DNA of 64,000 nt from Croceibacterium aestuarii (lineage in GTDB: Bacteria; Pseudomonadota; Alphaproteobacteria; Sphingomonadales; Sphingomonadaceae), in assembly GCF_030657335.1 (NCBI RefSeq), contig NZ_CP131039.1, positions 1,116,001 through 1,180,000 on the forward strand. Direction: 5' to 3'. The stretch's first letter is position 1. Each line of letters begins with the position of its first letter. The position numbers were made by a program, and so were the translations under genes. The notes under the pieces were generated by a model, which was given only the letters and a program-made list of their open reading frames with translations, ran no database searches and was not told the DNA's origin. This document shows positions 5,839-25,925 of this stretch, in pieces.

Positions 5839-6783
5839 TCAGGCCGCGCTGGCATCGCCGAAGCGGCCGTGCTTGCGGAACCGGACCATCCACCTGTCGA
5901 GGAACAGGCCGAGCGGGTGGGCCTGAACCTCGAGCTGCTTGAGGCCGGGCAGCGCCCCGGAGGCCACGTTTCCAGCCTTGAGCATGCGCCACTGGTCGCC
6001 GTTCATCGGCGTCAGCGGCAGCGCCGCGAACAGGCCCGAGAGTGCATCGGGCACGGCGACGAAACTGCGCCGGCGCCCTTGGGCGGCGGCTATCCGCCGG
6101 TGGAGATCGAGCATCGAAATCTGCTCCGGACCTGCCAGCTCGTAAGTCTTGCCGCCGTGTTCCGCGGGATCGGCGAGCGCCTTCGCGAGCGCTTCGGCCA
6201 CGTCGTCGACCCACACCGGCTGGATCTTCGCATCGGGCCCGAACACCGGCAGAACCGGCAGCGCCGAGATCAGCCCGGCGAACATGGTGATGAACCGATC
6301 GTCCTCGCCGAACATGACCGAGGGCCGCACGATCGTCGCCCGAGGAAACGCTGCGCGGACCTGCTCCTCGCCGCGCCCCTTGGTCGATGCGTAGCCGCTT
6401 TCCGAATCCGGATCGGCGCCGATTGCCGAGACATAGGCGAAGGCACTGGCGCCGCCCCTCGCCGCGGCCTGCGCCGCCCAGCCGGCGGCATCGGCCTGGA
6501 GCGTCTCCAGGTCGCCGGCGAAGGCGCCGACGAGGTAGGCGGCGGCGTCGGCCCCCTGCATCGCCAGCTCCACGCTGCGCCGATCGGCGACGTTGCAGCG
6601 GGTGAACTGGATCTGGCCCAGCTTGGCCAGCGGCCGGAGCGAATGGGCTTTTTCGGGATGGCGATCGGCAATGCGCACCCGCGCGCCGCACTCGAGCAGC
6701 GCCTGCACGAGGTGCCGGCCGACGAAGCCGCCGCCACCGATCACAACCACCAGTTTGTCCTCGAGCGGTCCGTAGGTCGCCAT
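5839..6783 (-). CDS. NDUFA9-like NAD(P)H-binding protein (complex I-associated SDR family)
   Basis: This 314-residue atypical short-chain dehydrogenase has the nucleotide-binding glycine motif GGGGFVGR at residues 16-23 and a conserved SAIGADPDSESGYASTKGRGE segment in place of the usual catalytic YxxxK arrangement. Alphaproteobacterial members resemble the mitochondrial complex I accessory subunit NDUFA9, but a firm reaction is not established. The start at 6783 removes a non-conserved Arg-rich extension. The gene is divergent from the tRNA, with 178 bases between them for promoters. Confidence 0.85.
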   Translation of the reverse strand: MATYGPLEDKLVVVIGGGGFVGRHLVQALLECGARVRIADRHPEKAHSLRPLAKLGQIQFTRCNVADRRSVELAMQGADAAAYLVGAFAGDLETLQADAAGWAAQAAARGGASAFAYVSAIGADPDSESGYASTKGRGEEQVRAAFPRATIVRPSVMFGEDDRFITMFAGLISALPVLPVFGPDAKIQPVWVDDVAEALAKALADPAEHGGKTYELAGPEQISMLDLHRRIAAAQGRRRSFVAVPDALSGLFAALPLTPMNGDQWRMLKAGNVASGALPGLKQLEVQAHPLGLFLDRWMVRFRKHGRFGDASAA

Positions 6784-6961
6784 GATACCTGTAAATCCCT
6801 CTTTTCCGCGGCCGCTTCGGCATCGGCCCCGTGCTGAGGGGGCCATGCCGCAACCCGCCGAGCGCCGCAAGCCGCCGACTTTTGTTTTGACAAGACCGCC
6901 GCGCCTTCGCTATCGGCCCGCCCCTACCCGCCGCTCGGCCCAAGAAGACCGCGCGGCCCGT

Positions 6962-7048
6962 GCCCAGATGGCGGAATTGGTAGACGCACCGTCTTCAGGT
7001 GGCGGCGCTCGCAAGGGCGTGGAGGTTCGAGTCCTCTTCTGGGCACCA
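6962..7048 (+). tRNA. tRNA-Leu (anticodon CAG)
   Basis: The acceptor stem pairs GCCCAGA (6962-6968) with TCTGGGC (7038-7044), followed by an A discriminator and an encoded CCA. The anticodon arm is CCGTC-TTCAGGT-GGCGG, giving anticodon CAG. A long variable arm (GCTCGCAAGGGC) marks a class II tRNA, and the T loop reads GTTCGAGTC. It decodes CUG, the dominant leucine codon of this GC-rich genome. Confidence 0.97.
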
Positions 7049-7192
7049 TTACTGGCATATCGCATCGTCTCGCGAACCCGGTGGCGGTTCTTCGGCCCTG
7101 ATCCGCGGGCTCGACGCCCTTGACATCATTCGGGTTTCTGCGCGATGAAGAGTCGCGACGGGAGGGCTTGGCTTGAGGAGGCCGGCCCGAGA

Positions 7193-7906
7193 ATGCCCTA
7201 TTGCGGCGCACCGCCTTTGCCCGACAGCCTGTGGCTGAGGTGGAATTTCGATCCGATTCTCATTGTTGCCCTGGCGCTGCTGGCCGGGGTGCATCTGCGC
7301 CGCTGCCCGGCGTCGCGCCGCACGATGGCAGCGGGCGGTTGGGCGATAACTTCGTTGGCTCTGATTTCGCCCCTCTGCGCGCTTTCGGTTTCGCTGTTCG
7401 CGGCGCGAGTCGGCCAGCACATGATCATGTTCCTGCTGGGCGCGCCGCTCGTGGCAGCGGCCCTGCCGGCCGCGCGCAATTCGCGCTGGCTATGGCCAGC
7501 CACAGCCGCGTTCACCGCATTCCTCTGGCTGTGGCACATGCCCGCGCCGTACGACGCGACGCTCCATTCCGACGCGATCTATTGGGCGATGCACACCACG
7601 CTGTTCTTCAGCGCGGTGCTGCTGTGGCGTGAGCTCCTGCCTCTCGGCGAGCGGCCAATGGGGCTGGTCGCGGCGGGTACGGTCGCCTCGATGCAGATGG
7701 CCTTCCTCGGCGCGGTTCTCACACTCGCGGGACGCCCGCTTTTCTCGTGGCATTATATCACGACCCAGGCTTGGGGCTTCACGCCGCTGGCCGATCAGCA
7801 ACTCGGCGGCACGCTGATGTGGGTGCCTGGCGGGATCCTCTTCCTGTGGCTGGCTCTGCGCACGACCGCTCACGTTCTGCGCGATCGGGAGGGCTTTGCC
7901 GTATGA
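7193..7906 (+). CDS. ctaG: Cytochrome c oxidase assembly factor, CtaG (caa3) family
   Basis: This 237-residue protein has about seven membrane helices and the features of the caa3-type CtaG family: LWLWHMPAPYD in the middle, MHTTLFFSAVLLWRELL, and a C-terminal DQQLGGTLMWVPGG. It is thought to help insert copper or assemble the caa3 oxidase and is unrelated to Cox11, which some databases also call CtaG. The ATG at 7193 is preferred to one at 7145 because GAGGAGG precedes it. It opens a ten-gene run, and its stop overlaps the start of the subunit II gene (ATGA). Confidence 0.88.
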   Translation: MPYCGAPPLPDSLWLRWNFDPILIVALALLAGVHLRRCPASRRTMAAGGWAITSLALISPLCALSVSLFAARVGQHMIMFLLGAPLVAAALPAARNSRWLWPATAAFTAFLWLWHMPAPYDATLHSDAIYWAMHTTLFFSAVLLWRELLPLGERPMGLVAAGTVASMQMAFLGAVLTLAGRPLFSWHYITTQAWGFTPLADQQLGGTLMWVPGGILFLWLALRTTAHVLRDREGFAV

Positions 7907-8853
7907 GCGGCGCGCCGCTCGGATACCTGACCAGCAACGGGGCAAGGGCGGACGCGACCGTTCCGTTGACCTGGTTTCTCGTGCTGCTCTCCAGCGCGGT
8001 CTGCCTGATCATCGCCTACATGCTGTGGCGCGCCGTGCGCCGGGGCAGGGCGGTGGAGGCCGGCCTGCCCGCGGTCGCGCGCGGGGTCGGCGGCGTCCGC
8101 CTGATCTTCATCGGCCTCGGCATATCCTCGCTGTTCCTCCTCGTGGCGCTCGGCTGGACGATGATCGCGCTTGGGCACGTCGCGCCGATGCCGCGGCGGC
8201 CGGAAATCACGATCGACGTCACCGCGCATCAGTGGTGGTGGCAGGCGGACTATGGCGGGGCGGTGCCCAGCGAGCGCTTCACCACGGCCAACGAAATCCA
8301 CGTGCCCGTCGGCGCCAAGGTGCTCGTGCGGCTGCACGGGGGGGACGTGATTCACAGCTTCTGGGTGCCCAAGCTGACCGGAAAGACCGATGCCATTCCC
8401 GGCCAGGTCAACCTGACCTGGCTCGAGGCCGACGAGCCGGGAATCTATCGCGGGCAGTGCAGCGAATACTGCGGGTTGCAGCATGCGCACATGGGCTTCG
8501 AGGTGGTCGCCGAAAGCCCTCGCGAATTTGCCAAGTGGCGCGCGGCCCAGCTGCAGACCGCGCCTCCGCCGGTCACTCCGGAGCAGGCGGAGGGCCTCGC
8601 TCTGATGGAATACCGCTGTGCGCTGTGCCACACCGTTCGCGGCACGAGCGCGGGGTCGAACGTCGGGCCCGACCTTACCCATCTCATGAGCCGCAGGCTG
8701 ATCGCTGCCGGCACCTATCCCAACAATCGCGCCAATCTCGCCGGGTGGATCGAGGATCCGCAGGGCGCGAAGCCTGGCGCCCAAATGCCGCCCCAGCACC
8801 TTACGGGGCCGCAGCTTCAAGCCGTTGTCGCTTACCTGGAGACGCTGGAATGA
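7903..8853 (+). CDS. Cytochrome c oxidase subunit II with fused cytochrome c domain (caa3 type)
   Basis: This 316-residue protein has two membrane helices (about 21-42 and 66-91), then the CuA cupredoxin domain with all ligands visible: His151, and Cys186, Glu188, Cys190, His194, Met197 in CSEYCGLQHAHM. After this comes a cytochrome c domain with the heme site CALCH at residues 239-243. The fusion defines a caa3-type oxidase, which takes electrons without a separate soluble cytochrome or from a small donor. The tryptophan-rich loop QWWWQADYGG is the usual electron entry region. Four-base overlaps on both sides (ATGA) indicate translational coupling with ctaG and subunit I. Confidence 0.95.
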   Translation: MSGAPLGYLTSNGARADATVPLTWFLVLLSSAVCLIIAYMLWRAVRRGRAVEAGLPAVARGVGGVRLIFIGLGISSLFLLVALGWTMIALGHVAPMPRRPEITIDVTAHQWWWQADYGGAVPSERFTTANEIHVPVGAKVLVRLHGGDVIHSFWVPKLTGKTDAIPGQVNLTWLEADEPGIYRGQCSEYCGLQHAHMGFEVVAESPREFAKWRAAQLQTAPPPVTPEQAEGLALMEYRCALCHTVRGTSAGSNVGPDLTHLMSRRLIAAGTYPNNRANLAGWIEDPQGAKPGAQMPPQHLTGPQLQAVVAYLETLE

Positions 8854-10856
8854 GCGCAGCCGACCTCACCGCCGGCCGCGAAGGGCCGCTGGCCGATACC
8901 GACACCCGCCTGTCGCGCACCCCACGCGTCGCCGTGGCCGACGCCGCCCTGCGCGATCGGCTCGAGCGGATCTGGCGTACAGAGCCGGGACTGAAGGGAT
9001 GGTTCGGCACAGTCGATCACAAGGAAATCGGCAAGCGCTACCTGGTGACGGCCTTCATCATGCTGGCGATCGGCGGGATCGAGGCGCTGGTTCTGCGGCT
9101 CCAGCTTGCCGGGCCCAACAAGCACCTGCTGACGCCAGAACAGTACAACGAACTGTTCTCGACCCACGGCATGACGATGATCTTCCTCTACGCGGGGCCG
9201 GTCCTGTCGGGCTTTTCGAACTACTTTTTCCCGCTGTGGCTCGGCGCGCGCGATATGGCGTTTCCGCGAATGAATGCGCTCAGCTACTGGATCTACCTCG
9301 CCGCCGCGCTGTTCCTCTACGCCGGGCCGCTGGTCGGGGCGGGGCCGAACGACGGCTGGTTCAACTACGTCCCTTACGCCGAAAAGGCCTTCAATCCCGG
9401 CATCAACGAGGACATCTACGCGCTGGGCATGGTCTTCCTCGGCATCTCGACCAGCGTCGGGGCGGCCAACTTCATCGTCACCGCGGCGCGCTGCCGGGCG
9501 CCGGGAATGTCGATAAACCGCCTGCCGATCATGGTCTGGGGCACGCTGACGGCGAGTGCGGCCAACCTGGTGGTCATACCCGCCGTAAGCCTGGCCTTCT
9601 TCCTGCTGTGGATGGACCGCAACCTGGGGACGAGCTTCTTCACCGTCGCCGGCGGCGGCGAGCCGCTGTTGTGGCAGCACCTGTTCTGGCTGTTCGGCCA
9701 TCCCTGGGTCTACGCCATCGTCCTGCCGGCGATGGGCATGGTATCCGACGGGCTGCCGACATTCTCGCGGACCCCGCTGGTCGGTTACACGCTCGTCGCG
9801 CTGTCCACCGTGGCGACGATGCTGCTCGGCTTCGGTGTCTGGGTGCACCACATGTTCGCCACCGGCCTGCCCGGTCTCGGCCTGGCGTTTTTCTCCGGCG
9901 CGTCGATCATCATCACCATTCCCAGCGCGGTCGCGGTGTTCGCGTGGCTGGCCACGATCTGGCTGGGCAAGCCGGTTTTCACCACGGCCTTCAAGTTCTT
10001 TGCGGGGATGATCCTGCTGTTCGTGATCGGCGGCGTTTCGGGCTTCATGACCGCCAGCGTGCCGGCCGACTGGCAGCTCACCGACACCTACTTTGTTGTC
10101 GCTCACCTTCACTACGTGCTGATCGGCATCAACGTGTTCCCGGTCTGCGGCGCCACCTACATGTGGTTCCCCAAGATGACCGGGCGGCTGATGGACGAGC
10201 GGCTGGGGTGGTGGAACTTCTGGACCATGTTCCTGGGCTTCAACCTCGCGTTTCTGCCGATGCACCTGACGGGGCTGCTCGGCATGCCGCGGCGGATCTA
10301 CACCTACGACGCCGGAATGGGCTTCTCGGCGCTGAACATGATCACGACGATCGGCAGCTTCGTCTTTGCGGTGGGCGTGCTGATGTTCTTCTGGAATGTC
10401 ATCAAGTCGCGGCGCAGCGGCGCGATCGCCGGTCCCGACCCGTGGAGCGGGCCGTCGCTCGAATGGACCATCCCCTCGCCGCCGCCTCCCTATAATTTCG
10501 CCGTGATCCCGACCGTCGCGAGCCGGCATCCGCTGTGGGAGGATCAGCTCGACGAGACCGAAAACCGATCGAGCTTCGAGGAGGGCATGACCCTCGACGA
10601 AGGCAAGGAAGCGCTGGCCGTATCGATCCTCGATGCGGAGCCCGACCGGATTCTCAAGATGCCGAGCGACACGACTGCGCCGTTCTGGCTCACGGTGGCG
10701 ACGGCGGTGCTGTTTGCCGGGCTGCTCGGCAAGCTGTGGTGGCTGGCGGCGCTCGGCGGCATCGGTGCAATCGCCTCGCTGGCGTTCTGGAACGAGCCGC
10801 GCACGAAGCTGCTCGAGCGCGAACCGGACGCGCATGAGGAGAGGCGCAATGGCTGA
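8850..10856 (+). CDS. Cytochrome c oxidase subunit I, variant lacking canonical proton-channel Glu and Lys
   Basis: The gene encodes 668 residues of heme-copper oxidase subunit I with about 12 core helices and two extra C-terminal helices. Heme and CuB ligands are present (His106, His284, His333-334, His419, His421), as is the cross-link Tyr288. The D-channel mouth is intact (Asn124, Asp135, Asn142). However, the usual HPEVY reads HPWVY, with Trp286 where family A1 has Glu, and it is not the YSHPxVY form of family A2. The helix usually carrying TGIKIFSW reads SAVAVFAW, so the K-channel Lys is Ala362. The last 150 residues carry an acidic insert and the extra helices typical of caa3-type subunit I. 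The start overlaps the subunit II stop. Confidence 0.95.
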   Translation: MSAADLTAGREGPLADTDTRLSRTPRVAVADAALRDRLERIWRTEPGLKGWFGTVDHKEIGKRYLVTAFIMLAIGGIEALVLRLQLAGPNKHLLTPEQYNELFSTHGMTMIFLYAGPVLSGFSNYFFPLWLGARDMAFPRMNALSYWIYLAAALFLYAGPLVGAGPNDGWFNYVPYAEKAFNPGINEDIYALGMVFLGISTSVGAANFIVTAARCRAPGMSINRLPIMVWGTLTASAANLVVIPAVSLAFFLLWMDRNLGTSFFTVAGGGEPLLWQHLFWLFGHPWVYAIVLPAMGMVSDGLPTFSRTPLVGYTLVALSTVATMLLGFGVWVHHMFATGLPGLGLAFFSGASIIITIPSAVAVFAWLATIWLGKPVFTTAFKFFAGMILLFVIGGVSGFMTASVPADWQLTDTYFVVAHLHYVLIGINVFPVCGATYMWFPKMTGRLMDERLGWWNFWTMFLGFNLAFLPMHLTGLLGMPRRIYTYDAGMGFSALNMITTIGSFVFAVGVLMFFWNVIKSRRSGAIAGPDPWSGPSLEWTIPSPPPPYNFAVIPTVASRHPLWEDQLDETENRSSFEEGMTLDEGKEALAVSILDAEPDRILKMPSDTTAPFWLTVATAVLFAGLLGKLWWLAALGGIGAIASLAFWNEPRTKLLEREPDAHEERRNG

Positions 10857-11460
10857 ACGTATCGTATCGCGCCCCGAAGCCCTGCCACTCGGCCCCATCG
10901 GTGGCCGCGGAATCGGCTGGAACGGCATGGTCATGCTGGTCGTCGCCGAGGCCTCATTGTTCGGCTACCTGCTGTTTTCCTACTACTACCTGGCGGTATC
11001 CAACCCCCCCGGTTGGGTGCTCGAAAGCGAACCCAGTCTCAAGCTGGCTCTGCCCAATACGTTCCTGTTGCTCGCATCGAGCGTCGCTGCCTGGTGGGGC
11101 GAGCGCGGCATTCGCAAGGACGACCGCGGCCAGGCGCTCGGCGGCATCGGCCTGGCGATCGCCATGGGGGCGGTGTTCGCGATCGTCCAGGGTTTCGAAT
11201 GGAAGGACAAAGCCTACGGCCTCGGAACGAGCAGCTACACCGCGCTCTATTTCGTGACGACCGGCTTCCACATGGCTCACGTCATCGCCGGGCTGATGAT
11301 TCTCGGCGCGCTCTGGCTGTGGACCTGGCGGGGGTTCTTCTCGCCGCTGCGGATGCTGCCGATGGCCAATGGCATCGTCTACTGGCACTTCGTCGACGCG
11401 GTGTGGCTGGCGGTCTTTTCCACCTATTACCTCTCTCCCTATCTCGGAGTCGGACAATGA
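10849..11460 (+). CDS. Cytochrome c oxidase subunit III
   Basis: This 203-residue protein has five membrane helices, the short form of subunit III seen in caa3 and bacterial quinol/cytochrome oxidases. The motifs FVTTGFHMAHVIAG and YWHFVDAVWLAVF are the conserved His- and Trp-containing signatures of the family. It stabilises the subunit I proton-uptake path and lipid sites in canonical enzymes. It overlaps the subunit I gene by 8 bases and the next gene by 4. Confidence 0.93.
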   Translation: MAERIVSRPEALPLGPIGGRGIGWNGMVMLVVAEASLFGYLLFSYYYLAVSNPPGWVLESEPSLKLALPNTFLLLASSVAAWWGERGIRKDDRGQALGGIGLAIAMGAVFAIVQGFEWKDKAYGLGTSSYTALYFVTTGFHMAHVIAGLMILGALWLWTWRGFFSPLRMLPMANGIVYWHFVDAVWLAVFSTYYLSPYLGVGQ

Positions 11461-11888
11461 CCCGCGACCAGGACGAAGGCGCTCATCCCGCGCCCCACCG
11501 GGGCCGGGTGGAAACGCACGAGGCGTTGTTCGCGGTCTGGGCCGCACCGCTGGCCTGGCTCGTCCAGCTTTCGGCGATCTATGCCTTTTCCTCGGCGCCC
11601 TGCTTCTATTACGGCATCCGCCTGACCACGCACCCCGGGGTCCAGCCCTGGCCGCTGATCATCGGCTGTGTCTGCCTCCTCGTTGCGCTTGCCGCACTGT
11701 GGCTGGGCGTGGTGCTGCTCCGGCGCACCAAAGACGAAACCGGAGGCAGCAAGCGTCATCTGTTCGAGACCGGGCAGGGCCGCACCCGTTTCATGGCCTT
11801 GTGGGGCATCGCCTTTTCCGCGGTGTTCGTCTTCCTGATTGCCGTCAACATCCTCCTGCTGCTGGGAATGCCGGTATGCGAAAGCTAG
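11457..11888 (+). CDS. Small membrane protein of unknown function in the oxidase operon
   Basis: This 143-residue protein has a hydrophilic His-rich start (residues 1-20) and three predicted membrane helices (about 24-48, 65-88, 115-137). A pair SAPCFYYG follows the first helix, and the protein ends in MPVCES. I do not recognise a named family. Its position between subunit III and the cytochrome gene, with 4- and 13-base overlaps, argues for a structural or assembly role in this oxidase. A subunit IV-like part is one possibility. Confidence 0.8.
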   Translation: MTRDQDEGAHPAPHRGRVETHEALFAVWAAPLAWLVQLSAIYAFSSAPCFYYGIRLTTHPGVQPWPLIIGCVCLLVALAALWLGVVLLRRTKDETGGSKRHLFETGQGRTRFMALWGIAFSAVFVFLIAVNILLLLGMPVCES

Positions 11889-12214
11889 TCGCCCTGGCGC
11901 TGATCCCGCTGGCCGCCTGTGCGGGCGGCAGGGACGACGACACCACCGAGCTCGCCAAGCAGGTGATCGCCGATCACTGCGGGCTGTGCCACACGGTGCC
12001 AGGGGTGATCCAGGCGCACGGCAAGGTCGGGCCGAACCTCGAAGGGATCGGCAGGCGCGAAGTCATCGCCGGCAAGTTGCCCAACAGCCGTCCCAACCTG
12101 CTGCGCTGGATCACCCACGCACAGACGATCGCGCCCGGATCGGCGATGCCCGACATCCCGCTGACGCCTGAGCAGGCGAACGCCGTCGCCGACTATCTCT
12201 ATTCGCTGGACTGA
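11876..12214 (+). CDS. Lipoprotein monoheme cytochrome c
   Basis: This 112-residue protein starts with a short lipoprotein signal whose lipobox PLAAC places the lipidated cysteine at residue 15, followed by Gly-Gly. The heme site CGLCH lies at residues 35-39, and MPDIPLT near residue 90 supplies a probable axial methionine. The sequence of the heme domain resembles the one fused to subunit II. It overlaps the previous gene by 13 bases and ends 4 bases before the alcohol dehydrogenase gene, so it probably carries electrons from the dehydrogenase module to the oxidase at the periplasmic membrane face. Confidence 0.9.
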   Translation: MRKLVALALIPLAACAGGRDDDTTELAKQVIADHCGLCHTVPGVIQAHGKVGPNLEGIGRREVIAGKLPNSRPNLLRWITHAQTIAPGSAMPDIPLTPEQANAVADYLYSLD

Positions 12215-12218
12215 TGCC

Positions 12219-14141
12219 ATGAAGACCAAGACCATCCTCCTCGCCACGTTTGCCGCCGTCGCCGTCGCGGCGCTTCCGGTCGTGGCTGCCCAGACCGGGA
12301 TGTTCCCGCAGCGCGCCGGGGCCAAGCCGCCGCTGCCCAAGCCGGTCCCCGCCGGCGACGTTTTCACCCGCGAGCAGATCGGCCACGCGCTGGCGCCGCC
12401 GACGCCCGGGGCCGGGCGCACGGTCGCCCCCGCGGCCGCCGCGCCGCAGGATGACGGGCAGTGGACCATGCCGGCCAAGAACTATGCGGCGACGCGCTAC
12501 ACCTCGCTCAACGAGATTACCCCGGCGAATGCCAAGAACCTGCAAGAGGTCTTCAGCTTCTCGCTGGGCGTCAACAAGGGTCAGGAAGCCGCGCCCATCG
12601 TCGTCGACAACACGATGTACGTCGTTAGCGCCTTTCCCAACCACGTCTACGCGCTCGACCTGACCAAGGAAGGCGCGCCGCTCAAGTGGAGCTACAATCC
12701 CAAGCCCGTGCCGGCCGCCGCGGGCGTGGCCTGCTGCGACGTGGTCAATCGCGGCGGCGCCTATGCCGACGGCAAGTTCGTCTTCAACACGCTCGACGGA
12801 GCGACGATCGCGCTCGATGCCAAGACCGGCAAGGAGGTCTGGCGCACCCAGCTGGGTGACATCAACAAGGGCGAGAGCGTGACGATGGCGCCGCTGATTG
12901 CCGGCGGCAAGGTCCTGGTCGGCAATTCGGGGGGCGAGTTCGGCGTTCACGGCTGGCTCACCGCGCTCGATCTCGGCAGCGGCAAGATCGCCTGGCGCGC
13001 CTATCACACCGGGCCCGACGACCAGGCGCTGATCGGCAAGGACTTCCATCCTTTCTACGCGATGGACCGGGGCAAGGACCTGGGCGTGAAGAGCTGGCCG
13101 GCGGGTGCCTGGCAGATTGGCGGCGGCACGATGTGGGGCTGGATCGCCTACGATCCGGCGACCCAGACGATTTTTTACGGCACGGCCAATCCTGGCCCGT
13201 GGAACCAGCTCCAGCGGCCCGGAGACAACAAGTGGACCGCCGGCCTGTTCGCGCGCGACGTCAACACCGGCCAGGCCAAGTGGTTCTACCAGATGAACCC
13301 GCACGATGAGCACGACTATGACGGCATCAACGAGCAACTGCTGCTCGACATGCCATTCGGGGGCAAGATGCGGGAGGTCCTGCTCCACCCCGATCGCAAC
13401 GGCTACGTCTACGTCGTCGATCGCGAGACAGGCCAGGTGCTTTCGGCCGATCCATACGGCCCCGTGAATTCGTCCAAGGGGGTGAACCTCAAAACGGGCC
13501 GGCTGATCGTCAATCCGGCGAAGGAAACCCATCTCGGCCAGGTAGTGCACGACATCTGTCCCACCGCGAGCGGGGCGAAGGACTGGAATCCCTCGAGCTT
13601 CAGTCCGCGCACCGGGCTGGTCTATATCCCGCACGAGAACCTGTGCATGGACTGGATGAATCTCGAGGTGAATTACATCTCGGGCACGCCCTACGTCGGG
13701 GCGGAGGTGAAGATGAAACCCGGGCCGGGCGGGCATCGCGGCGAACTCACCGCGTGGGACCCTGTGCTGCGCAAACCGGCCTGGACGATTCGGGAGGATC
13801 TGCCCGTCTGGTCCGGCACCGTTTCGACCGGGGGCGACCTCGTGTTCTACGGAACGATGGACGGCTGGTTCAAGGCCGTCGACGCGCGCACCGGGAAGCT
13901 GGTCTGGAAGCAAAAGCTCGAAAGCGGCATCATCGGCCAACCGATCAGCTACAAGGGGCCCGACAGCCACCAGTACGTCGCCGTGCTGTCCGGCGTCGGA
14001 GGCTGGTCGGGCGCGATCGTGTCGGGGCCGCTCGACCCGCGCGACGGCTCCTCCGCACTCGGTTTCGTCAACACGATGACCGACCTTCCCAACCGCACGA
14101 CCGCAGGAGGGACGCTCCATGTCTTCGCACTTCCGCATTGA
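12219..14141 (+). CDS. PQQ alcohol dehydrogenase with lanthanide-type active site (XoxF/ExaF-like)
   Basis: This 640-residue periplasmic eight-bladed propeller oxidises primary alcohols with PQQ. By comparison with methanol dehydrogenase, the adjacent-cysteine disulfide is Cys172-Cys173 (ACCDVVNRG). The metal ligands are Glu240 (GGEFGVHG) and Asn324 (ANPGPWN). The stacking Trp is in GGTMWGW, the catalytic Asp is 366 and Arg393 is in HPDRNG. The motif DYDG puts a second Asp at 368, where Ca-type MxaF has Ala; that Asp marks lanthanide-dependent enzymes. A signal peptide (residues 1-24) is followed by an unusual Pro/Ala-rich stretch of about 55 residues before the propeller. Cytochrome, beta-propeller and XoxJ-like genes follow, as expected. 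The true substrate (methanol, ethanol or longer) cannot be read from the sequence. Confidence 0.93.
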   Translation: MKTKTILLATFAAVAVAALPVVAAQTGMFPQRAGAKPPLPKPVPAGDVFTREQIGHALAPPTPGAGRTVAPAAAAPQDDGQWTMPAKNYAATRYTSLNEITPANAKNLQEVFSFSLGVNKGQEAAPIVVDNTMYVVSAFPNHVYALDLTKEGAPLKWSYNPKPVPAAAGVACCDVVNRGGAYADGKFVFNTLDGATIALDAKTGKEVWRTQLGDINKGESVTMAPLIAGGKVLVGNSGGEFGVHGWLTALDLGSGKIAWRAYHTGPDDQALIGKDFHPFYAMDRGKDLGVKSWPAGAWQIGGGTMWGWIAYDPATQTIFYGTANPGPWNQLQRPGDNKWTAGLFARDVNTGQAKWFYQMNPHDEHDYDGINEQLLLDMPFGGKMREVLLHPDRNGYVYVVDRETGQVLSADPYGPVNSSKGVNLKTGRLIVNPAKETHLGQVVHDICPTASGAKDWNPSSFSPRTGLVYIPHENLCMDWMNLEVNYISGTPYVGAEVKMKPGPGGHRGELTAWDPVLRKPAWTIREDLPVWSGTVSTGGDLVFYGTMDGWFKAVDARTGKLVWKQKLESGIIGQPISYKGPDSHQYVAVLSGVGGWSGAIVSGPLDPRDGSSALGFVNTMTDLPNRTTAGGTLHVFALPH

Positions 14142-14685
14142 GATCGCTGCCGCAATGACTCTCGCACTCGCGCTGGGGGCCTGCGATCAGGCCAAGGACG
14201 ATACCTCGACCGGCACCTTCGCTCCGGCCGGCCCGGGCGCCCCCGCGCAGCGCGACGTGGCGCTGGTTCCCGGCGGCGGCGATCTGGTCACCGCGCCCGA
14301 TCGGCGGGCGCTGCCCTACCTAGACAATGCCGCGGCCGTGACCGAGGGGATGCAGCTCTACAACCAGATGAACTGCGTGGGCTGTCACTTTAACGGGGGC
14401 GGCGGAATCGGGCCCCCGCTGATGGACACGAGCTGGACGTACGGCGGCCGGCTCGATCAAATCTATGACACGATCTATTTCGGGCGCGCCAACGGCATGC
14501 CGGCCTGGGGCGGTAAGCTGACCGACGACCAGATCTGGAAGATTGCCAGTTATGTCCGCTCGATGTCGTTGCCCGAGACGATTGCCGCGAACGGCAACGG
14601 CACGCCCTCGCAGCATCCCGCGCCCGTTCCGAGGGAAGCTGACGCATTCGACGGATGGCACGTTCCCAAGGAAGCCGGAAGTTAG
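14119..14685 (+). CDS. Lipoprotein cytochrome c, probable electron acceptor of the PQQ dehydrogenase (XoxG-like role)
   Basis: This 188-residue protein carries a lipoprotein signal with lipobox ALGAC (Cys22), a low-complexity Gly/Pro/Ala linker, and one cytochrome c domain with heme site CVGCH at residues 86-90. NGMPAWGG supplies the probable axial Met. The ATG at 14119 lies behind GCAGGAGGG inside the 3' end of the dehydrogenase gene, a 23-base overlap. XoxF operons normally carry a dedicated cytochrome cL called XoxG at this place. This one is diverged and lipid-anchored, so the XoxG name is a role inferred from position. Confidence 0.88.
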   Translation: MSSHFRIEIAAAMTLALALGACDQAKDDTSTGTFAPAGPGAPAQRDVALVPGGGDLVTAPDRRALPYLDNAAAVTEGMQLYNQMNCVGCHFNGGGGIGPPLMDTSWTYGGRLDQIYDTIYFGRANGMPAWGGKLTDDQIWKIASYVRSMSLPETIAANGNGTPSQHPAPVPREADAFDGWHVPKEAGS

Positions 14686-14701
14686 GTCGCTCCCTGCCCT
14701 G

Positions 14702-15664
14702 TTGGCGCCAACCCTGGCGTTGGCGCTTGCCGCGTGCTCTTCGTCCGAGCGGGGCGGCGACCGCGTTTTCGTCTCGGACGAGGAGGCCGACGTGGTTCAC
14801 GTCCTCGACGGTGCGAGCGGCGAGGTCGAGGGGGCTTTGCAGACCGGCGAGCGTCCCCGCGGCCTCGCGCTCTCCCCCGATGGCAAGACGCTGTATGTCG
14901 CGGCGAGCGAATCCAACCGCATCGAGGCCTGGGACAGTCACTCGCTGCGCAAGCTCCGCGAACTCGGTTCGGGGAGCGATCCCGAGCGCATCGCGGTCAG
15001 CCCCGACGGGGCGACGATCTACGCGGCCAACGAGGACAAGAGCGCCGTTTCGTTCATCGACGTCGCCAGCGGCAAGGTGGTGCGCGAGGTGCGCGTCGGG
15101 CCCGAACCCGAAGGCATCGGCGTCTCCCCCGACGGCAAGTTGTTGATCGCGACCAGCGAAGTGGCCAGCGTCGCCCATTTCATCGACGTGGCCAGCGCCA
15201 AGGTAACCGACAACCTACCCGTCGGCAGCCGGCCGCGCGAAGTGCTGTTCCTCAAGGGCGGGCGCGAGGCCTGGGTCTCGTCGGAGCAGCGCGGAACAAT
15301 CGCGGTGTTCGACACCGCTTCGCGCGAGATGAAGCGCACGATCGACCTCGCCGCGGCCTTCCCCGACCTCGAGAATCCGCAGGCGGTCGAGCTCGAGCTG
15401 ACCCGCGACGGCAAGCGCGCCTTCGTCGCCATGGGGCGCGGTGACCGCGTCGCGGAAATCGATCCGGTGAGCTACCGCGTGGTCCGTTCGTTCCCCACCG
15501 GCCACCGCACTTGGGGAATCGCCCTCTCGCCAGACGACGCGCGACTCTATGCCGTCTCGGGGCTCTCGGGCACGGCAACGATCATCGACCTGGAGAAGGA
15601 CAAGGTCGCCCACACGGTCACGCTCGGCGGCAAGCCGTGGACTGCCGAGGCTGCCTCGCGATGA
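14702..15664 (+). CDS. PQQ-associated YVTN beta-propeller lipoprotein
   Basis: The protein of about 320 residues contains repeated blades with the pattern SPDGKTLYVA..., typical of the family called PQQ-dependent catabolism-associated beta-propeller proteins. A lipobox ALAAC lies near the N-terminus. The frame has no ATG or GTG near the conserved start. I used a TTG at 14702, which gives a hydrophobic signal but lacks the usual positive residues; a better n-region (RKPEVRS) lies just upstream without a start codon. An alternative is a frameshift from an ATG at 14655 in another frame. The role may be sensing or stabilising the PQQ system, but it is not established. Confidence 0.85.
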   Translation: MAPTLALALAACSSSERGGDRVFVSDEEADVVHVLDGASGEVEGALQTGERPRGLALSPDGKTLYVAASESNRIEAWDSHSLRKLRELGSGSDPERIAVSPDGATIYAANEDKSAVSFIDVASGKVVREVRVGPEPEGIGVSPDGKLLIATSEVASVAHFIDVASAKVTDNLPVGSRPREVLFLKGGREAWVSSEQRGTIAVFDTASREMKRTIDLAAAFPDLENPQAVELELTRDGKRAFVAMGRGDRVAEIDPVSYRVVRSFPTGHRTWGIALSPDDARLYAVSGLSGTATIIDLEKDKVAHTVTLGGKPWTAEAASR

Positions 15665-16455
15665 AGCGCGCCGGGTTGCTCACGCTCCTGCTGGCAGCCT
15701 GCGCCCCCGATCCGCTCAAGGTCTGCGCCGATCCCAACAACCTGCCGTTTTCGAATCGGGCGGGCGAAGGGTTCGAGAACAAACTGGCCGAACTGATCGC
15801 CTCCGACCTCGACCGGCCGATCGCGTACACCTGGTGGGCCCAGCGGCGCGGATTCGTGCGCAACACGGTGGGCGAGGGCGCCTGCGACATCTGGCCCGGT
15901 GTCGCCGCGGGGCTGGAAACGCTCGAGACCACGCGTCCATACTACCGCGCGAGTTACATGTTCGTGACGCGTCAGTCCGACGACCTCGCGGGCCTGACGC
16001 TCGACGATCCGCGGCTGAAACGCCTTTCGCTGGGCGTGCAGTTGGTGGGCGACGATGGCGGCAACACTCCGCCGGCGCACGCCCTCGCCCGGCGCGGCAT
16101 TATCGGCAACGTCCGCGGCTACATGCTCTATGGCGATTATACGCGGCCCAATCCGCCCGCCGCGATCGTCGACGCGGTCGAAAAAGGCGAGATCGATGCT
16201 GGCCTCGTCTGGGGCCCTCTCGCCGGCTACTTCGCCCGGCGAAGCAAAGTGCCCTTGCGGCTGGAACCGGTTACTCCGTGGCTCGACGACAACCAGTGGC
16301 CGATGGCCTACGACATTTCGGTGGGCGTGCGAAAGGATGATCCGCAGCTGAGGGATGACGTCGATCGCGTGCTCAAAGCCCGCAAGCGCGAGATTGCCAA
16401 GCTGCTCGAAGATTATGGGATCGAGCCGATCGGGCCGCAGGCGACCGCGCCCTAG
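15661..16455 (+). CDS. XoxJ/MxaJ-like periplasmic binding protein
   Basis: This 264-residue protein belongs to the quinoprotein-dehydrogenase-associated solute-binding family. The N-terminal motif VCADPNNLPFSNRAGEGFEN is characteristic, as are the later WPGVAAGLETL and YDISVGV segments. A short signal ending at a cysteine (LLLAAC) suggests a lipoprotein. Structural work on related XoxJ proteins suggests they help activate or fold the dehydrogenase rather than feed a transporter, and no permease is present here. The ATG overlaps the stop of the beta-propeller gene. It closes the ten-gene oxidase and dehydrogenase run. Confidence 0.92.
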   Translation: MKRAGLLTLLLAACAPDPLKVCADPNNLPFSNRAGEGFENKLAELIASDLDRPIAYTWWAQRRGFVRNTVGEGACDIWPGVAAGLETLETTRPYYRASYMFVTRQSDDLAGLTLDDPRLKRLSLGVQLVGDDGGNTPPAHALARRGIIGNVRGYMLYGDYTRPNPPAAIVDAVEKGEIDAGLVWGPLAGYFARRSKVPLRLEPVTPWLDDNQWPMAYDISVGVRKDDPQLRDDVDRVLKARKREIAKLLEDYGIEPIGPQATAP

Positions 16456-17108: not shown

Positions 17109-18032
17109 ATGCAGCGTGACGAACGTATTCGCGACGAAGCCGCAGCCTGGGCGGTCCGCGCGGGAGACCCCGGCTTTGCCGATTGGGACGCCTTCGAACA
17201 CTGGCTCGGCCGGTCGCCGGAGCACGCTGCCGCCTACGACCGCGTCGCGGCTGCGGCGGCGGAAGCTGCGGAGGAGCTGCGCGCGGCGCGCCCGGCTTCC
17301 GCGAACGACGATGACGTGCCGCAGCCGGCGCGGGTTTCGCGCCGCTGGTTTGACGGGGCGCTCGCTGCCGCGCTGGTGGCGGTGCTCGCATTCGCGGTTT
17401 GGCCGGGCGGCAGCACCTATTATGAAGAAACGGCACCGGGCGAGATCCGCATGATCGCGCTTGGCGGCGGCGACCGGATCGACCTCGCGGGTGGGACGCG
17501 CATCGAGCTCGACCGCGACGATCCCCGGTTTGTACGGCTCGAGAGCGGCCGCGCACTGTTCACCATTCGCCACGACGAGGCGCATCCGTTCCGCGTCGTG
17601 GCCGGCGACGACGCCCTGCTCGATGTCGGAACGGTGTTCGACGTGGCGCTCGACGAGGCGAACGTGCGCGTTGCGGTGGCCGAGGGGGCGGTCGTGTTCA
17701 ATCCCGCGCGCCAGGCGGTCCATCTCGCGCCCGGCGAGGTACTGCGCAGCGCTCGCGGTTCGGACGCTTACCGGACGAGCACGATCGCGCCCGCCCAGGT
17801 CGGCGAATGGCGCGAGGGCCGGCTGAGCTTCGACAATGCCAGCTTGGCGGAAGCGGCGTCCGATCTGGCCCGGGCGACCGGCGTGGCCTTCCGCGCGGCG
17901 CCGGGCAGCACTGTGCGGATTTCGGGCAGCATCGTCATCGCTCAGGTACGCGAGGATCCGCGCGCCGCCGGGGCCCTCCTCGGCGTGCCGGTCCGGCGCG
18001 AGGGCGACGACTGGGTGCTCGGCGCGAACTGA
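17109..18032 (+). CDS. FecR-like anti-sigma/sensor protein
   Basis: This 307-residue protein has an N-terminal cytoplasmic DUF4880 domain (EAAAWAVRAGDPGFADWDAFEHWL region, residues about 9-55) that binds the sigma factor. One membrane helix (about 82-97) follows, then a periplasmic FecR domain that contacts the receptor's signalling domain, and a C-terminal STN-like segment (SFDNASLAEAASDLARATG). AGGAGG lies 8 bases before the ATG. It follows the sigma gene by 38 bases and precedes the receptor by one base, the classic order of a surface-signalling system. Confidence 0.93.
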   Translation: MQRDERIRDEAAAWAVRAGDPGFADWDAFEHWLGRSPEHAAAYDRVAAAAAEAAEELRAARPASANDDDVPQPARVSRRWFDGALAAALVAVLAFAVWPGGSTYYEETAPGEIRMIALGGGDRIDLAGGTRIELDRDDPRFVRLESGRALFTIRHDEAHPFRVVAGDDALLDVGTVFDVALDEANVRVAVAEGAVVFNPARQAVHLAPGEVLRSARGSDAYRTSTIAPAQVGEWREGRLSFDNASLAEAASDLARATGVAFRAAPGSTVRISGSIVIAQVREDPRAAGALLGVPVRREGDDWVLGAN

Positions 18033-18033
18033 G

Positions 18034-20409
18034 ATGCACCGGACGCTGCCCGTCCTGCTTGCGGCAAGTGCCGCTCTCGCCGCCAGCGCGGCGCACGCCG
18101 AGAGCGTGGCGATCGACGCGCCCGCCGGGCGCGCGGCCGATGCAGCCATTGCCATCGCCCGGCAGACCGGCACGAGCATCGTGATTACCGACCCGGCGGT
18201 CGCGGATCGCAAGGTGAGGGCGATCCGCGGCACGATGGGTGCCGGCGACGCCGTGCGCAAGCTCGCCCGCTTCGCGCGCGTTCGCGCCGTGGCCGCAGGC
18301 CGCTACGGCTGGCGGCTGATCCCTGCACCCGAAGCGCGCCGACCCATACCGAACGCACCGGCGCCAAGACCGGTCCGCGCGGGACCCGCGCCGCCGAGCG
18401 AGATGAGCGAAGTCGAAGGAACGCCGATCATCGTCGAAGCGAGTAAGCGCGACCTCGCGCTGGGCGATTTTCCGGGGCAGGTCTCGCTGCTCGACGGGGA
18501 GGCGCTCGAACTCGGCGGGATCGGCGGGACCGAGAAGATAACCCAGCGGCTGGCCACGGTATCCTCGACCCACCTCGGCAGCGGCCGCAACAAACTGTTC
18601 ATTCGCGGCATCGCGGATTCGAGCTTTACCGGTCCGACTCAGGCCACCGTGGGGCAGTATCTCGGCGATCTGCGATTGAGCTACAACGCGCCCGACCCCG
18701 ACCTGCGTCTGTCCGACCTCGACCGCGTCGAGGTACTCGAAGGACCTCAGGGCACGCTTTACGGCGCCGGATCGCTCGGGGGGATCATCCGCCTGGTGCC
18801 GAATGTCCCCGATGCCGGCTTCGCCGCCGCCTCGGGCCAGGTCGGCCTCGGCTACACCCAGCACGGCAGCGCGAGCGTCGACGCAAGCGCGACGATCAAC
18901 CTGCCGCTGGTCCGCGACCGCGCCGCGCTGCGCATTACCGCCGATGCCGCACGCCAGGGCGGCTACATCGACAAGCCGCTGCTCGGCCGCGACAACGTCA
19001 ATCGTACCGACCTGGTGGGAGGACGAGCGATGCTCCGGGTCGAACTCGCGCCCGGCTGGCAGGTCGATGTCATCGGTCTAGCCCAATCGACCGACAGCGC
19101 CGACAGCCAGTACGCCGATCGCCAGGGGCCGCCGCTGTCCCGCCAGGCCCGCGTCGCCGAAGGGTCGCGGAGCGACTATGCGCAGGCACAGATCGTCGTC
19201 TCGGGGGAAATCGGGCTGCTGCGTTTCCGTTCGTCGACCGGATACACCTCGCAAGACCTGCTCGAGCGCTACGACGCGACCGCCCAGGGCGCGCCGCCGC
19301 GCCTGTTCCTTCAGTCGAACGACACCGAGATGTTCGCCAACGAGACGCGGCTCTGGCAGCCTCTGGGCGACAATATCGGGTGGGTTCTCGGGGCGAGCTA
19401 TACCCGCAACCGGATGCGCCTCTCGCGTCGGCTCGAAGACGAGCAGACGGCAATCGCGACGACGGTGACCGGCGTTCGCAACGGGATAGACGAACTCACG
19501 GTCTACGGGGAGGGCAGCCTGCGCCTGCTCGACCGGCTGATCCTGACCGGCGGCGCCCGCTACACCCACTCGAAGCTGAGCGGCACGGGCGAAGACGTTC
19601 AGCCGATGCTGTTGGCGGCGCTTGCCGGCATAACCGCCGGTCGCACCGAAACCGCGTTCTTGCCCTCGGCCTCGCTCCTCGCCGACGTGCTGCCGGGCAC
19701 GGTGCTCTACGTCCGTTACCAGGAAAGCTTCCGGCCCGGCGGCCTCGCGGTCGCGGGGCCGATCGTGCGACGCTTCGACAACGATAACAGCGCCACCTTC
19801 GAGATCGGCGCGCGCCACGGGAATCGCGGCCGGGGCCCCTTCGATCTCGCCGCCAGCGTTTCCTATACCCGCTGGGACGATATCCAGGCCGACTTCATCG
19901 ACCTGTCCGGCTTCCCGAGCACCGCCAATATCGGCGACGGGCGGGTCTGGACCGCCACACTGAGCGGCGGGCTCGAAGTCAGTCCGGCACTGCGCCTCGA
20001 CGCCGGGGCGAGCTGGAACAAGAGCAAGGTCGACGAACCGCAGCTGGCCTTCGCCGCGCGAATCACCCAGGTGCCGAACATCGCGGCATTCACCGGCCGG
20101 GTCGGCTTCGATTATCTGCACGAGTTGTCGGGCGGCCTCGAACTGACGGCGCAGGGCTGGGTCAACTACGTGGGCAAATCGCGTCTCGGGATCGGACCCG
20201 AGCTGGGCGAACTGCAAGGCGACTATCTCGACAGCGGCGTGACCGTGCGCGTCGGTCGCCCCGAGCTCGGCCTGACGCTCGGCGTGGCCAACCTCGCCGA
20301 TGTCCGGGGCAACCGCTTCGCGCTCGGCACGCCCTTCGCCATCGGCCGCGACCAGGTCACCCCGCTGCGTCCGCGCACCGTTCGCCTCGGCTTCGACGCG
20401 TCCTTCTAA
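18034..20409 (+). CDS. TonB-dependent receptor with N-terminal signalling domain (FecA-like transducer)
   Basis: This 791-residue outer-membrane receptor starts with a signal peptide (ending AAHA-ES), followed by an STN signalling domain (residues about 26-98), a Pro-rich linker, a plug domain (RIEVLEGPQGTLYGAGSLGGIIR-like segment near residue 240) and a 22-strand barrel ending in a C-terminal Phe. The STN domain fits the adjacent FecI/FecR pair. The substrate is unknown. Its position directly after a lanthanide-type alcohol dehydrogenase operon makes a lanthanide-chelator complex or PQQ attractive candidates, while ferric siderophore remains the default for this family. Confidence 0.93.
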   Translation: MHRTLPVLLAASAALAASAAHAESVAIDAPAGRAADAAIAIARQTGTSIVITDPAVADRKVRAIRGTMGAGDAVRKLARFARVRAVAAGRYGWRLIPAPEARRPIPNAPAPRPVRAGPAPPSEMSEVEGTPIIVEASKRDLALGDFPGQVSLLDGEALELGGIGGTEKITQRLATVSSTHLGSGRNKLFIRGIADSSFTGPTQATVGQYLGDLRLSYNAPDPDLRLSDLDRVEVLEGPQGTLYGAGSLGGIIRLVPNVPDAGFAAASGQVGLGYTQHGSASVDASATINLPLVRDRAALRITADAARQGGYIDKPLLGRDNVNRTDLVGGRAMLRVELAPGWQVDVIGLAQSTDSADSQYADRQGPPLSRQARVAEGSRSDYAQAQIVVSGEIGLLRFRSSTGYTSQDLLERYDATAQGAPPRLFLQSNDTEMFANETRLWQPLGDNIGWVLGASYTRNRMRLSRRLEDEQTAIATTVTGVRNGIDELTVYGEGSLRLLDRLILTGGARYTHSKLSGTGEDVQPMLLAALAGITAGRTETAFLPSASLLADVLPGTVLYVRYQESFRPGGLAVAGPIVRRFDNDNSATFEIGARHGNRGRGPFDLAASVSYTRWDDIQADFIDLSGFPSTANIGDGRVWTATLSGGLEVSPALRLDAGASWNKSKVDEPQLAFAARITQVPNIAAFTGRVGFDYLHELSGGLELTAQGWVNYVGKSRLGIGPELGELQGDYLDSGVTVRVGRPELGLTLGVANLADVRGNRFALGTPFAIGRDQVTPLRPRTVRLGFDASF

Positions 20410-20484: not shown

Positions 20485-23400
20485 ATGCTTCGCTACCTGC
20501 TTGCTTCGACTGCCGTTCTCGCCATCGCGGCGCCTGTCTCGGCCGAGACCATTTCCACCACGGTGACCACGCCGCTGAAGACCTCGACGGTCAAGGCCGG
20601 CCAGCCGGATTCGATCACCGTCGCCACTGCGGGCTCCGTGGTGCTGACGAGCGGCACCGCGATTACCATGGACGACGACCACAGCGTCACCGTGCAGGGG
20701 GACCTGACCGTGACCGGGGCAAGCAGCTCTGCCGGCATCGTCGCCGTCGCCGGCACCACGGGTGACATTAGCAATTCGGGCAAGATCACGATCGACGAGG
20801 CTTATACGGCCACCGACAGCGACAACGACGGCGACCTCGACGGCCCGTTCGCCGTGGGATCGGACCGCTACGGCATTCGCACCGACGGCGCGCACACCGG
20901 CAAGGTGGTCAATTCCGGCACCATCACCGTCGAAGGAAATGATTCGTACGGCATCCTGCTCGGCGGGCCGCTCGGCGGCGAGCTCAGGCACGACGGCAAG
21001 ACGACCGTGTTGGGCGACCGCAGCGTCGGCGTGCAGGCGGGTGCAGTCTCGGGCAACGTGCGCCTCGCCGGCCAGGTTCAGGCCACCGGCAAGGACGCCG
21101 TCGGAGCCCGGTTCACGGGCGATATCGGCGGAGCGATGGTGGTTCAGGGCGGCATCGTCTCGACGGGTTACCGCTTGACCACCGTGCCCTCGAACACGAG
21201 CAAGCTCGACTCCGACGACCTCTTGCAGGGCGGCTCGGCGCTGGTGATCGAAGGCAGCGTGGCAGGCGGCGTCGTCCTGGCAATTCCGCCCAAGGAATCG
21301 AACGCGAACAGCACCGACGACGATGGCGACGGAATCGAGGATTCGAAAGAAGGGTCGGCGCAGATCACCACCTACGGTGCAGCACCCGCCATGGTCGTCG
21401 GGTCTAGCGGGCATGACATAACCATCGGCGCTGTGGCAGGGACGGCGACGCAATTCGGCCTGCAGGTCGACGGCGGCATTGCCGGGCTCGGGCTCTATTC
21501 CGGCGTCGACGCCAACGGCCTGCTCATCGGCGGGCGCGGCGGCGCGGTGACGATTGCCAACGGCATTGGCGTTTCGGGAAGCGTCGTGGCGACCTCGAAC
21601 GGCGCCAACGCTACCGCCCTGCGCCTCGGCGCCGGCGCCTCGACCCCGGTCCTGCAGGTCTCCGGCAAGGTCGAAGCGAGCGGCGGCAACAGCGCCAGCG
21701 CCTTTACCACTGCGGTGCAGATCGACGCGGGTGCGGTCCTTCCGGCGCTGCGCAACAGCGGCTCGATCAAGGCCACGGCCGGCACCACGGGCAATGCGAC
21801 CGCGATCCTCGACAGGAGCGGAACCCTGGTGCTGATCGAGAACAGCGGCTCCATCGCCGCGGCCGGCCCAGCGGCGGATTCGGGACGGCTCGTTGCGATC
21901 GACCTGTCGGCTAACACAGCCGGGGCGACGCTTCGCCAGACCGAAGTCGGCAGCGGCTTCACGGCGCCGTCGATTACCGGCGATGTCCGCTTCGGCTCGG
22001 GCAGCGACGTGTTCGAAGTGGCCGACGGCACCGTCAAGGGCGCCGTCCAGTTCGGTGCCGGCAACAATCGCCTCTCGCTTTCGGGTGACGCCGCGCAGAC
22101 CGGCAAGGCGGTGTTCGGTGCGGGCGACGACACGGTAAGCCTGGCCGGGACCTCGGCCTACGCCGGCACGATCGACTTCGGCGGCGGCAACGATGTGCTG
22201 ACGCTCGCCGGAACCTCGCTGCTCAGCGGCAAGCTGCTCAACGCCGGCGGCCTCGCCGTCACCGTCAACGGCACGCTCGACCTCACCGGGCCGGTGACGC
22301 TCAAATCGCTCGACGTCGCTTCGGCCGGCGTCCTCGACGTGACGCTCGACAAGGCGGCGGGCGCCGGCACGTTCTACAACGTTACCGGTACCGCTTCGTT
22401 CGGCACCAACGCAACGCTGGCGCTGCACATAGCCGACGTTGGCGACGCGGTTGGACGATACACGATCCTGCAGGCCGGCACGCTCGAAGGCGCGGCCGGG
22501 ATCAAGACCACGACCGCCACGATCCCGTTCATGTTCAAGAGCACCCTGGCGAGCGATGCGCCCGCCAACACCCTTGCCATCGATGTCGGGAAGAAGACCA
22601 CGAGCGAGCTTGGCCTCAACCGGTCGCAGAGCGCGGCCTATAACGCCGTGTTCGCAGCCGTCGGCGCCGACGACCAGATCGAGAAGGTTTTCCTGGGGAT
22701 CACCGACGGCGACGTGTTCCGCAATTCGGTCAAGCAGATGCTGCCCGACCATGCCGGCGGGGCTTTCGAAGGCGTTAGCCTCGGCAGCCGGGCCTTCATC
22801 GCGCAGGCCTTCGAGCCTGTCGGACCGCTCTACTCGGTCGGCGGGCTCGACATCGTGCTCAGCGCGGTCGGCTGGGCGACCGACAAGGACCAGGGCGCGA
22901 CTGCGGCTTACAATCTCGACGGCCTCGGCTTCGGGGCTTCCGCCGAAATCGACACGGGGATCGGCAGTTTCGGCGGATCGCTCAACTGGTACTGGAACGA
23001 GTACGACAACGGCGGCGACCAGAACCGCGTGCTGTCCGATACGTATGAACTCGCGGCTTACTGGCGCGGCAAGTGGGGCGGCTTCTCGGCCTTCGCGCGG
23101 GGTTCCTACGGCCTCGCCAATTTCCAGGGCCGCCGGACCTTCACCGGCGAGGCGGGGAGCCAGCACGTCGAACGCAACGTCATCAGCAAGTGGAACGGCA
23201 GTGTCGTCACCGCAAGCGGCGGCGTGTCGTTCGAAGGCGGCGGCAGCCATCTGTTCTTCCGCCCGACGGTGACCGCCGACTACCTGAAGCTCGACGAGGA
23301 CGGCTACACCGACCGGGACGGCGGCGGCCTCAATCTGGTGGTCGATGGCCGCAAGAGCGACGAGTTCGCGATCAACGGCGGGCTCGCACTGGGCGTCGAC

Positions 23401-25869: not shown

Positions 25870-25879
25870 CGTGGCGCGG

Positions 25880-25899
25880 CTATATACAGGGGAATATAG
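25880..25899. promoter_or_regulatory. Candidate ModE operator between modA and the ModE-like gene
   Basis: CTATAT (25880-25885) and ATATAG (25894-25899) form a perfect inverted repeat with an 8-base spacer. This resembles the TATAT-spacer-ATATA core of known ModE boxes and is one of the few AT-rich spots in the region. It sits between divergent modABC and the ModE-like gene, the expected place for autoregulation and repression by molybdate. Confidence 0.6.
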
Positions 25900-25925
25900 A
25901 TGGTCCAGCACGAGGGAGAGCTGAA

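Follow-up and report, generated by a model that had tools for sequence, protein, structure and literature searches.

Most models of proton pumping by oxidases rest on Glu286 and Lys362, and single mutants at these positions nearly stop the engineered enzymes. How an oxidase that carries neither residue could move its protons, and whose electrons it disposes of, are the questions raised by a locus of Croceibacterium aestuarii lying in the 64,000-nucleotide stretch of contig NZ_CP131039.1 considered here (the window; coordinates are window positions unless stated, and the genes of the operon lie on the forward strand). The gene concerned (8850-10856) has an ATG start and an open frame of 668 amino acids, and encodes CoxA, an oxidase subunit I with Trp286 and Ala362.

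The enzyme whose catalytic subunit CoxA forms is a heme-copper oxidase of family A and of the caa3 type. CoxA matches the COX1 family (PF00115, 474 bits in a Pfam search), and its best matches among the sequences of solved structures all belong to family A, led by 6adq (E 1e-139), with ba3 far weaker (E 1e-12). The AlphaFold model of the protein (pLDDT 88.2) superposes on R. sphaeroides aa3 (2gsm) with a Z of 43.8 and an rmsd of 1.6 Å over 499 residues, and on bo3 (8qqk) with a Z of 46.1; it also predicts two helices in a C-terminal extension (residues 610-645). All six His ligands (106, 284, 333, 334, 419, and 421) are present and, together with the cross-linking Tyr, give the set that characterizes family A, in line with the original prediction that the enzyme should still hold heme and copper. 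Tyr288, Ser299, and Arg481/482 are likewise retained. As Tyr288 is kept, reduction of O2 remains the likely reaction, and we infer that O2 is the substrate of CoxA. The caa3 layout is provided by CoxB (7903-8853; PF00116 and PF00034), a subunit II in which a CuA domain is fused to a cytochrome c, with the CuA motif CSEYCGLQHAHM as well as CxxCH.

The two substitutions are placed securely. Aligned with solved A-family oxidases, helix VI of CoxA reads GHPWVY under GHPEVY and helix VIII reads PSAVAVFAW under PTGIKFFNW, in both cases with no gap. The HPWVY codons (His284-Tyr288) occupy 9699-9713, the Trp286 codon being 9705-9707, and the Ala362 codon, located by residue numbering and alignment, is 9933-9935. 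The numbering of CoxA coincides with that of R. sphaeroides at both sites; a two-residue insertion lies in the helix VII-VIII loop, upstream of helix VIII. A misalignment was rejected, because both stretches are free of gaps between invariant anchors. Thus, Trp at the position of Glu286 and Ala at that of the K-channel lysine, both of which had been proposed from the sequence of the locus, were borne out, as was the proposed absence of the Tyr-Ser pair of type A2: CoxA reads LFGHPWVY, and the residues before HP throughout its clade are F-G or F-A, with one W-G. A hidden type A2 enzyme was rejected on this basis, since the Tyr-Ser of YSHPXV is missing from CoxA and from the clade, and the Glu in XGHPEV that defines type A1 is absent as well. 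The D-channel mouth (Asn124, Asp135, and Asn142), which had been described as intact, is indeed so, and extends to Asn207; in all, CoxA has N124, D135, N142, S145, S200, T201, and N207, the mouth Asp and Asn residues being those expected of family A.

In family A, each channel end holds one essential ionisable residue, namely Asp132 and Glu286 in the D-channel and subunit II Glu101 and Lys362 in the K-channel (PMC8239185). CoxA and CoxB together retain one of these four, Asp135. In addition to the Ala362 substitution, no Glu is found in the subunit II helix, so that CoxB lacks the K-channel entry residue (R. sphaeroides Glu101), a point absent from the original prediction. At this site CoxB reads RLIFIG, versus xE[IVLF]xWT in helix 2 of K-containing relatives. 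In a comparison confined to in-frame CoxB reads (out-of-frame reads were not counted), the readable CoxB proteins of K-containing relatives have the Glu, and none of those readable in the Gln362, Asp286, and Trp286 groups retains it. As far as residues can tell, the K-channel of the Trp286 clade is dismantled in both subunits.

The Trp286 enzyme is no isolated case. A search with one genome per species gave 80 relatives; a DNA scan for the HPWVY type found it in 4 of 385 genomes from the class and 6 of 398 from the phylum, with the window's own genome counted both times. Plasmid records were added to the HPWVY sample. In a tree computed with the trait columns removed, 27 sampled proteins with a small residue at 362 (always Ala, Thr, Ser, or Gly) form the Trp286 clade with an SH-aLRT of 100. 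Its hosts include Sphingomonas, Aurantimonas, Bradyrhizobium, Roseovarius, Hyphomicrobium, Caulobacteraceae, and other Proteobacteria, along with MAGs labelled Gammaproteobacteria. Plasmid records that share the motif come from Mesorhizobium, the methanotrophs Methylocella and Methylocystis, and Paraburkholderia, and further records from Burkholderia and Caballeronia, counted by identity and not by motif, match at 61-63%. The clade operons on large plasmids of Mesorhizobium, Methylocella, Methylocystis, and Paraburkholderia (L133-L137), one of which adjoins pqqBCDE, are patchily distributed, which suggests transfer.

The codon at position 286 is TGG in all 33 clade sequences, whose pairwise protein identity falls to as low as 59%, although the Pro, Val, His, and Tyr codons around it differ at silent positions. 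Therefore, the Trp is under selection, and a sporadic mutation or sequencing error was rejected, as the residue is common to all 33. D132, N139, and N207 (R. sphaeroides numbering) are 100% conserved in the clade, in contrast to the Glu286-bearing EQ group (Glu286/Gln362), in which N139 and N207 are altered.

The relatives also bear on the order of the losses. All sampled sequences without Glu286 (22 with Trp286 and 8 with Asp286) are without Lys362 too, whereas 56 sequences of the sample combine Glu286 with Gln362. As no Glu286-less sequence has Lys362, this pattern suggests that the K-channel was lost first and Glu286 later, a conclusion limited to this branch because type A2, in which Lys is kept and Glu is absent, lies outside the sample. 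The EQ group, which occurs in Pseudomonas, Rhizobium, and sphingomonads and which we take to be probably of the coxMNOP type, has likewise lost the K path in both subunits, but differs from the Trp286 enzymes in having kept Glu286 and in a D-channel rewired with extra Glu. Specifically, Asn139 is replaced by Ser and Asn207 by Glu, and additional Glu residues stand at window-equivalent positions 120, 198, and 254 (loci such as L043, L052, L056, L060, L071, and L072). With this rewiring the EQ group seems to have met the loss of the K-channel in another way. Actinobacterial relatives combine Asp286 with Gln362 in eight of eight cases (L024, L025, L028, L029, L031, L032, L033, and L035). One protein of an Actinomycetota MAG (positions 6302-8188 of locus L026) has Trp286 with Gln362 and lies outside the clade, sister to a Glu286/Gln362 protein in the tree; its Trp286 has a second, independent origin.

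Could another residue stand in for Glu286? The clade alignment shows no conserved Glu or Lys in the membrane helices that could serve instead, nor any clade-peculiar conserved Glu, Asp, Lys, or Arg near site 286 in those helices. The clade-peculiar polar and aromatic residues are Tyr114 (31 of 33), Asn172 (32 of 33), which sits two residues past the invariant Trp170, Tyr190, Thr201, Asn239 and Ser247 in helix V, and Ser120 and Ser123, which flank the Asn124 gate. By its spacing from the heme a ligand (His102/106), residue 111 of CoxA is the equivalent of R. sphaeroides Met107, which lies about 3 Å from Glu286 (PMC6934443). Helix periodicity places residues 111, 114, 118, 120-121, and 124 of helix II roughly on one face, so Tyr114 may face the channel. 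It is the best clade-specific candidate for a stand-in.

The source of the electrons is suggested by the operon. Upstream of coxB lies the gene of the Caa3_CtaG copper-assembly factor CtaG (7145-7906; PF09678, E 2e-27), in an order that is the same in many relatives. The subunit I gene is followed by that of subunit III, CoxC (10849-11460; PF00510, E 2e-23), and by a gene in the subunit IV position (11457-11888) for a small membrane protein with no match in the Pfam search, which recurs after CoxC in most loci of the clade. Next come a c-type cytochrome (11876-12214; PF00034) and a XoxF-like PQQ dehydrogenase of the methanol/ethanol family (12219-14141; TIGR03075, E 1e-187), whose best PDB match is the methanol dehydrogenase 4mae (E 3e-188), followed by XoxF (6oc5), and which carries an HDYDG motif. 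The DYD motif is typical of lanthanide-type enzymes. A second c-type cytochrome, cbb3-III/MoxG-like (14119-14685; PF13442, with a weak TIGR03872 match under the cut-off), probably accepts electrons from the dehydrogenase. The series ends with a PQQ-dependent catabolism-associated beta-propeller protein of uncertain start (14684-15664; TIGR03866, 306 bits against a cut-off of 287) and a MoxJ-like quinoprotein-associated substrate-binding protein (15661-16455; TIGR03871, 284 bits against a cut-off of 212). Further along the window, translations point to tandem FecR-like and TonB-receptor-like genes (17109-20409) and, on the reverse strand, to probable molybdate ABC transporter genes (23806-25911); between them is encoded a large protein (20485-23679) whose N-terminal passenger is repetitive and whose C-terminus is probably that of an autotransporter.

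When only loci with flanks longer than 5.5 kb on each side are counted, a methanol/ethanol-family PQQ dehydrogenase occurs within about 8 kb in 14 of 26 Trp286 loci and in none of 39 non-Trp286 relatives (EQ 0/24, D 0/5, EK 0/9, other 0/1), a ratio that is descriptive, as related species are not independent. An Azospirillum relative with Gln362 and short flanks (L138) also has the dehydrogenase, so this link may be older than Trp286. No PQQ dehydrogenase is in view in clade members of Aurantimonas, Roseovarius, Hyphomicrobium, and the Burkholderiales plasmids; in a Paraburkholderia plasmid a GMC dehydrogenase adjoins coxB, and in a Methylocella plasmid PQQ and GMC dehydrogenases are both found in the neighbourhood of the oxidase. 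The original prediction had reserved the enzyme for alcohol electrons. The dehydrogenase linkage supports this in part, but with no PQQ dehydrogenase in view in several members and the GMC type beside one, "periplasmic dehydrogenase electrons" fits better than "alcohol electrons". The genome of the window also encodes a Glu286/Lys362 oxidase, as well as cbb3-like and qNOR-like proteins (named by sequence inspection), and the Trp286 oxidase is thus an extra branch. About a dozen PQQ-domain dehydrogenase-like proteins are encoded in the same genome. Searches of it for PqqC and PqqE, run with no positive control, returned nothing or a weak generic match; possibly the bacterium depends on PQQ from outside.

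In engineered A1 enzymes, removing the Glu stops the oxidative phase, and removing the Lys stops the reduction of heme a3 (PMC12901375). In a natural lineage that has neither, protons must move otherwise. We propose a caa3-type, probably weakly or non-pumping oxidase that takes up protons through the D-channel only and ends a periplasmic dehydrogenase chain, a combination to which we give about an even chance. Electrons would pass from the XoxF-like dehydrogenase through the operon cytochromes c to the cytochrome fused to subunit II, and then by way of CuA and heme a to the binuclear centre. The protons that form water would enter through the retained D-channel mouth (Asp135, Asn124/142/207, and Ser145) and continue along an upper channel made more polar by Ser120, Ser123, Ser200, Thr201, and the clade-specific Tyr114, which would lie on the helix II stripe turned towards Glu286 in known structures. 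No carboxylate gate would stand on their way to the active site. With the gate that sorts substrate protons from pumped ones missing, pumping would probably be reduced or absent, and energy would still be conserved by charge separation.

With the D-channel mouth kept and the K path lost in two subunits, uptake through the D-channel alone is the most economical reading. Likewise, as the carboxylate is lost at the branch point of pumped and substrate protons, weak or no pumping is likely; for the Trp286 oxidase, judged from its residues, we would put this slightly above even. However, the K-path residues Ser299, Ser359, and Tyr288 are still present in CoxA, and the D-channel of engineered A1 enzymes is unable to take over from the K-channel during the reductive phase, both of which count against this explanation. 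Type A2 and family B oxidases, moreover, pump without Glu286, so its absence is no proof of non-pumping. That the lineage uses one D-channel for all of its protons, without gate or K-channel, and either does not pump or relies on a wholly different gate, seems quite possible to us, if somewhat short of even.

Alternatively, substrate protons could follow a K path that contains no lysine, in the manner of family B, leaving the D-channel mouth for pumped protons or as a relic. The lining of that path is well kept in the clade (Ser299 in 26 of 27, and Ser352, Ser359, and Tyr288 in 27 of 27), water has space beside the small residue 362, and family B does function without the canonical Lys and Glu286 (PMC8780969). 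However, family B keeps the subunit II entry Glu (PMC8780969), which is lost here in every readable member, and the fully conserved D-channel residues are unlike a relic. We consider this route unlikely, though not negligible. Normal or near-normal pumping, with Tyr114 or another polar group in the role of Glu286, much as type A2 uses its Tyr-Ser pair, appears to us rather improbable as well. It draws on the complete conservation of the D-channel, on the clade-specific Tyr114, Asn172, Thr201, and Asn239, and on the precedent that Tyr can replace Glu in type A2 (PMC8361435). Against it, Tyr114 and the Tyr of A2 are on different helices, Tyr114 makes a putative contact at most with the active-site cavity, and the K path is missing as well.

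It is very unlikely that CoxA is a nitric oxide reductase or another enzyme that does not use O2, even though NORs have an aromatic residue two positions after the His (H-X-aromatic-X-E; PMC3084760), which the Trp of HPWVY resembles, and the qNOR-like protein of the same genome reads HLWVE. CoxA has Tyr288 where NORs have Glu, reads HHMFA in place of the second NOR motif (H-H-X-Arom-Arom-X17-E) and lacks its Glu, keeps CuA, the CuB ligands, and the caa3 architecture, and falls inside family A; with neither NOR motif present, this identity was rejected. A degenerate, non-functional oxidase, as the loss of residues essential in studied family A enzymes might imply, is scarcely credible given the intact ligands and operon and a Trp and D-channel residues that do not vary from one proteobacterial class to another.

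How does the weakly or non-pumping, D-channel-only oxidase proposed here relate to known systems? Type A1 enzymes (R. sphaeroides, P. denitrificans, M. smegmatis, and mitochondria) share with it the fold, the metal ligands, the His-Tyr pair, the D-channel mouth, and the CuA subunit II, but the Trp286 enzyme lacks Glu286, Lys362, and subunit II Glu101. The type A2 caa3 oxidases of Rhodothermus and Thermus likewise have no Glu286 and the same layout; the Trp286 enzyme differs from them in having no Tyr-Ser before HP and in the additional loss of Lys362. Family B (ba3) also has neither Glu286 nor the canonical Lys, but is without the D-channel mouth that CoxA possesses. By the published A1/A2 definition (PMC8361435), the Trp286 enzyme is neither.

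The operon itself corresponds to COX operon type a-II, described as having PQQ dehydrogenases and a COX1-COX4 fusion (Degli Esposti 2014, PMC4013037) and later filed as A1 subtype a (PMC6431628). As far as the compared parts of these descriptions go, the PQQ-dependent dehydrogenase found at the CoxA locus is shared with type a-II, together with CtaG and the cytochrome-fused subunit II. COX1 has a C-terminal extension in both, and that of CoxA, with its two predicted helices, is a candidate for the COX4/ctaF-like segment. The same parts do not mention proton-channel residues, and the word "proton" is absent from the main text of PMC4013037. Type a-II probably covers Glu286/Gln362 enzymes too. 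In the open-access literature searched, with subscription papers mostly outside it, we found no description of HPWVY or of the double loss of Glu286 and Lys362. Thus, the operon type is already known, and the channel-residue variant of family A is new within the open-access literature.

A conserved natural family without Glu286, Lys362, and the subunit II Glu constitutes a natural test of proton pumping. Together with the apparent intermediates (Gln362/Glu286, Gln362/Asp286, and Gln362/Trp286), it offers an evolutionary series in which what turnover needs might be told apart from what pumping needs. For the organisms themselves, the findings suggest that periplasmic alcohol oxidation may have an oxidase of its own, one whose energy yield differs.
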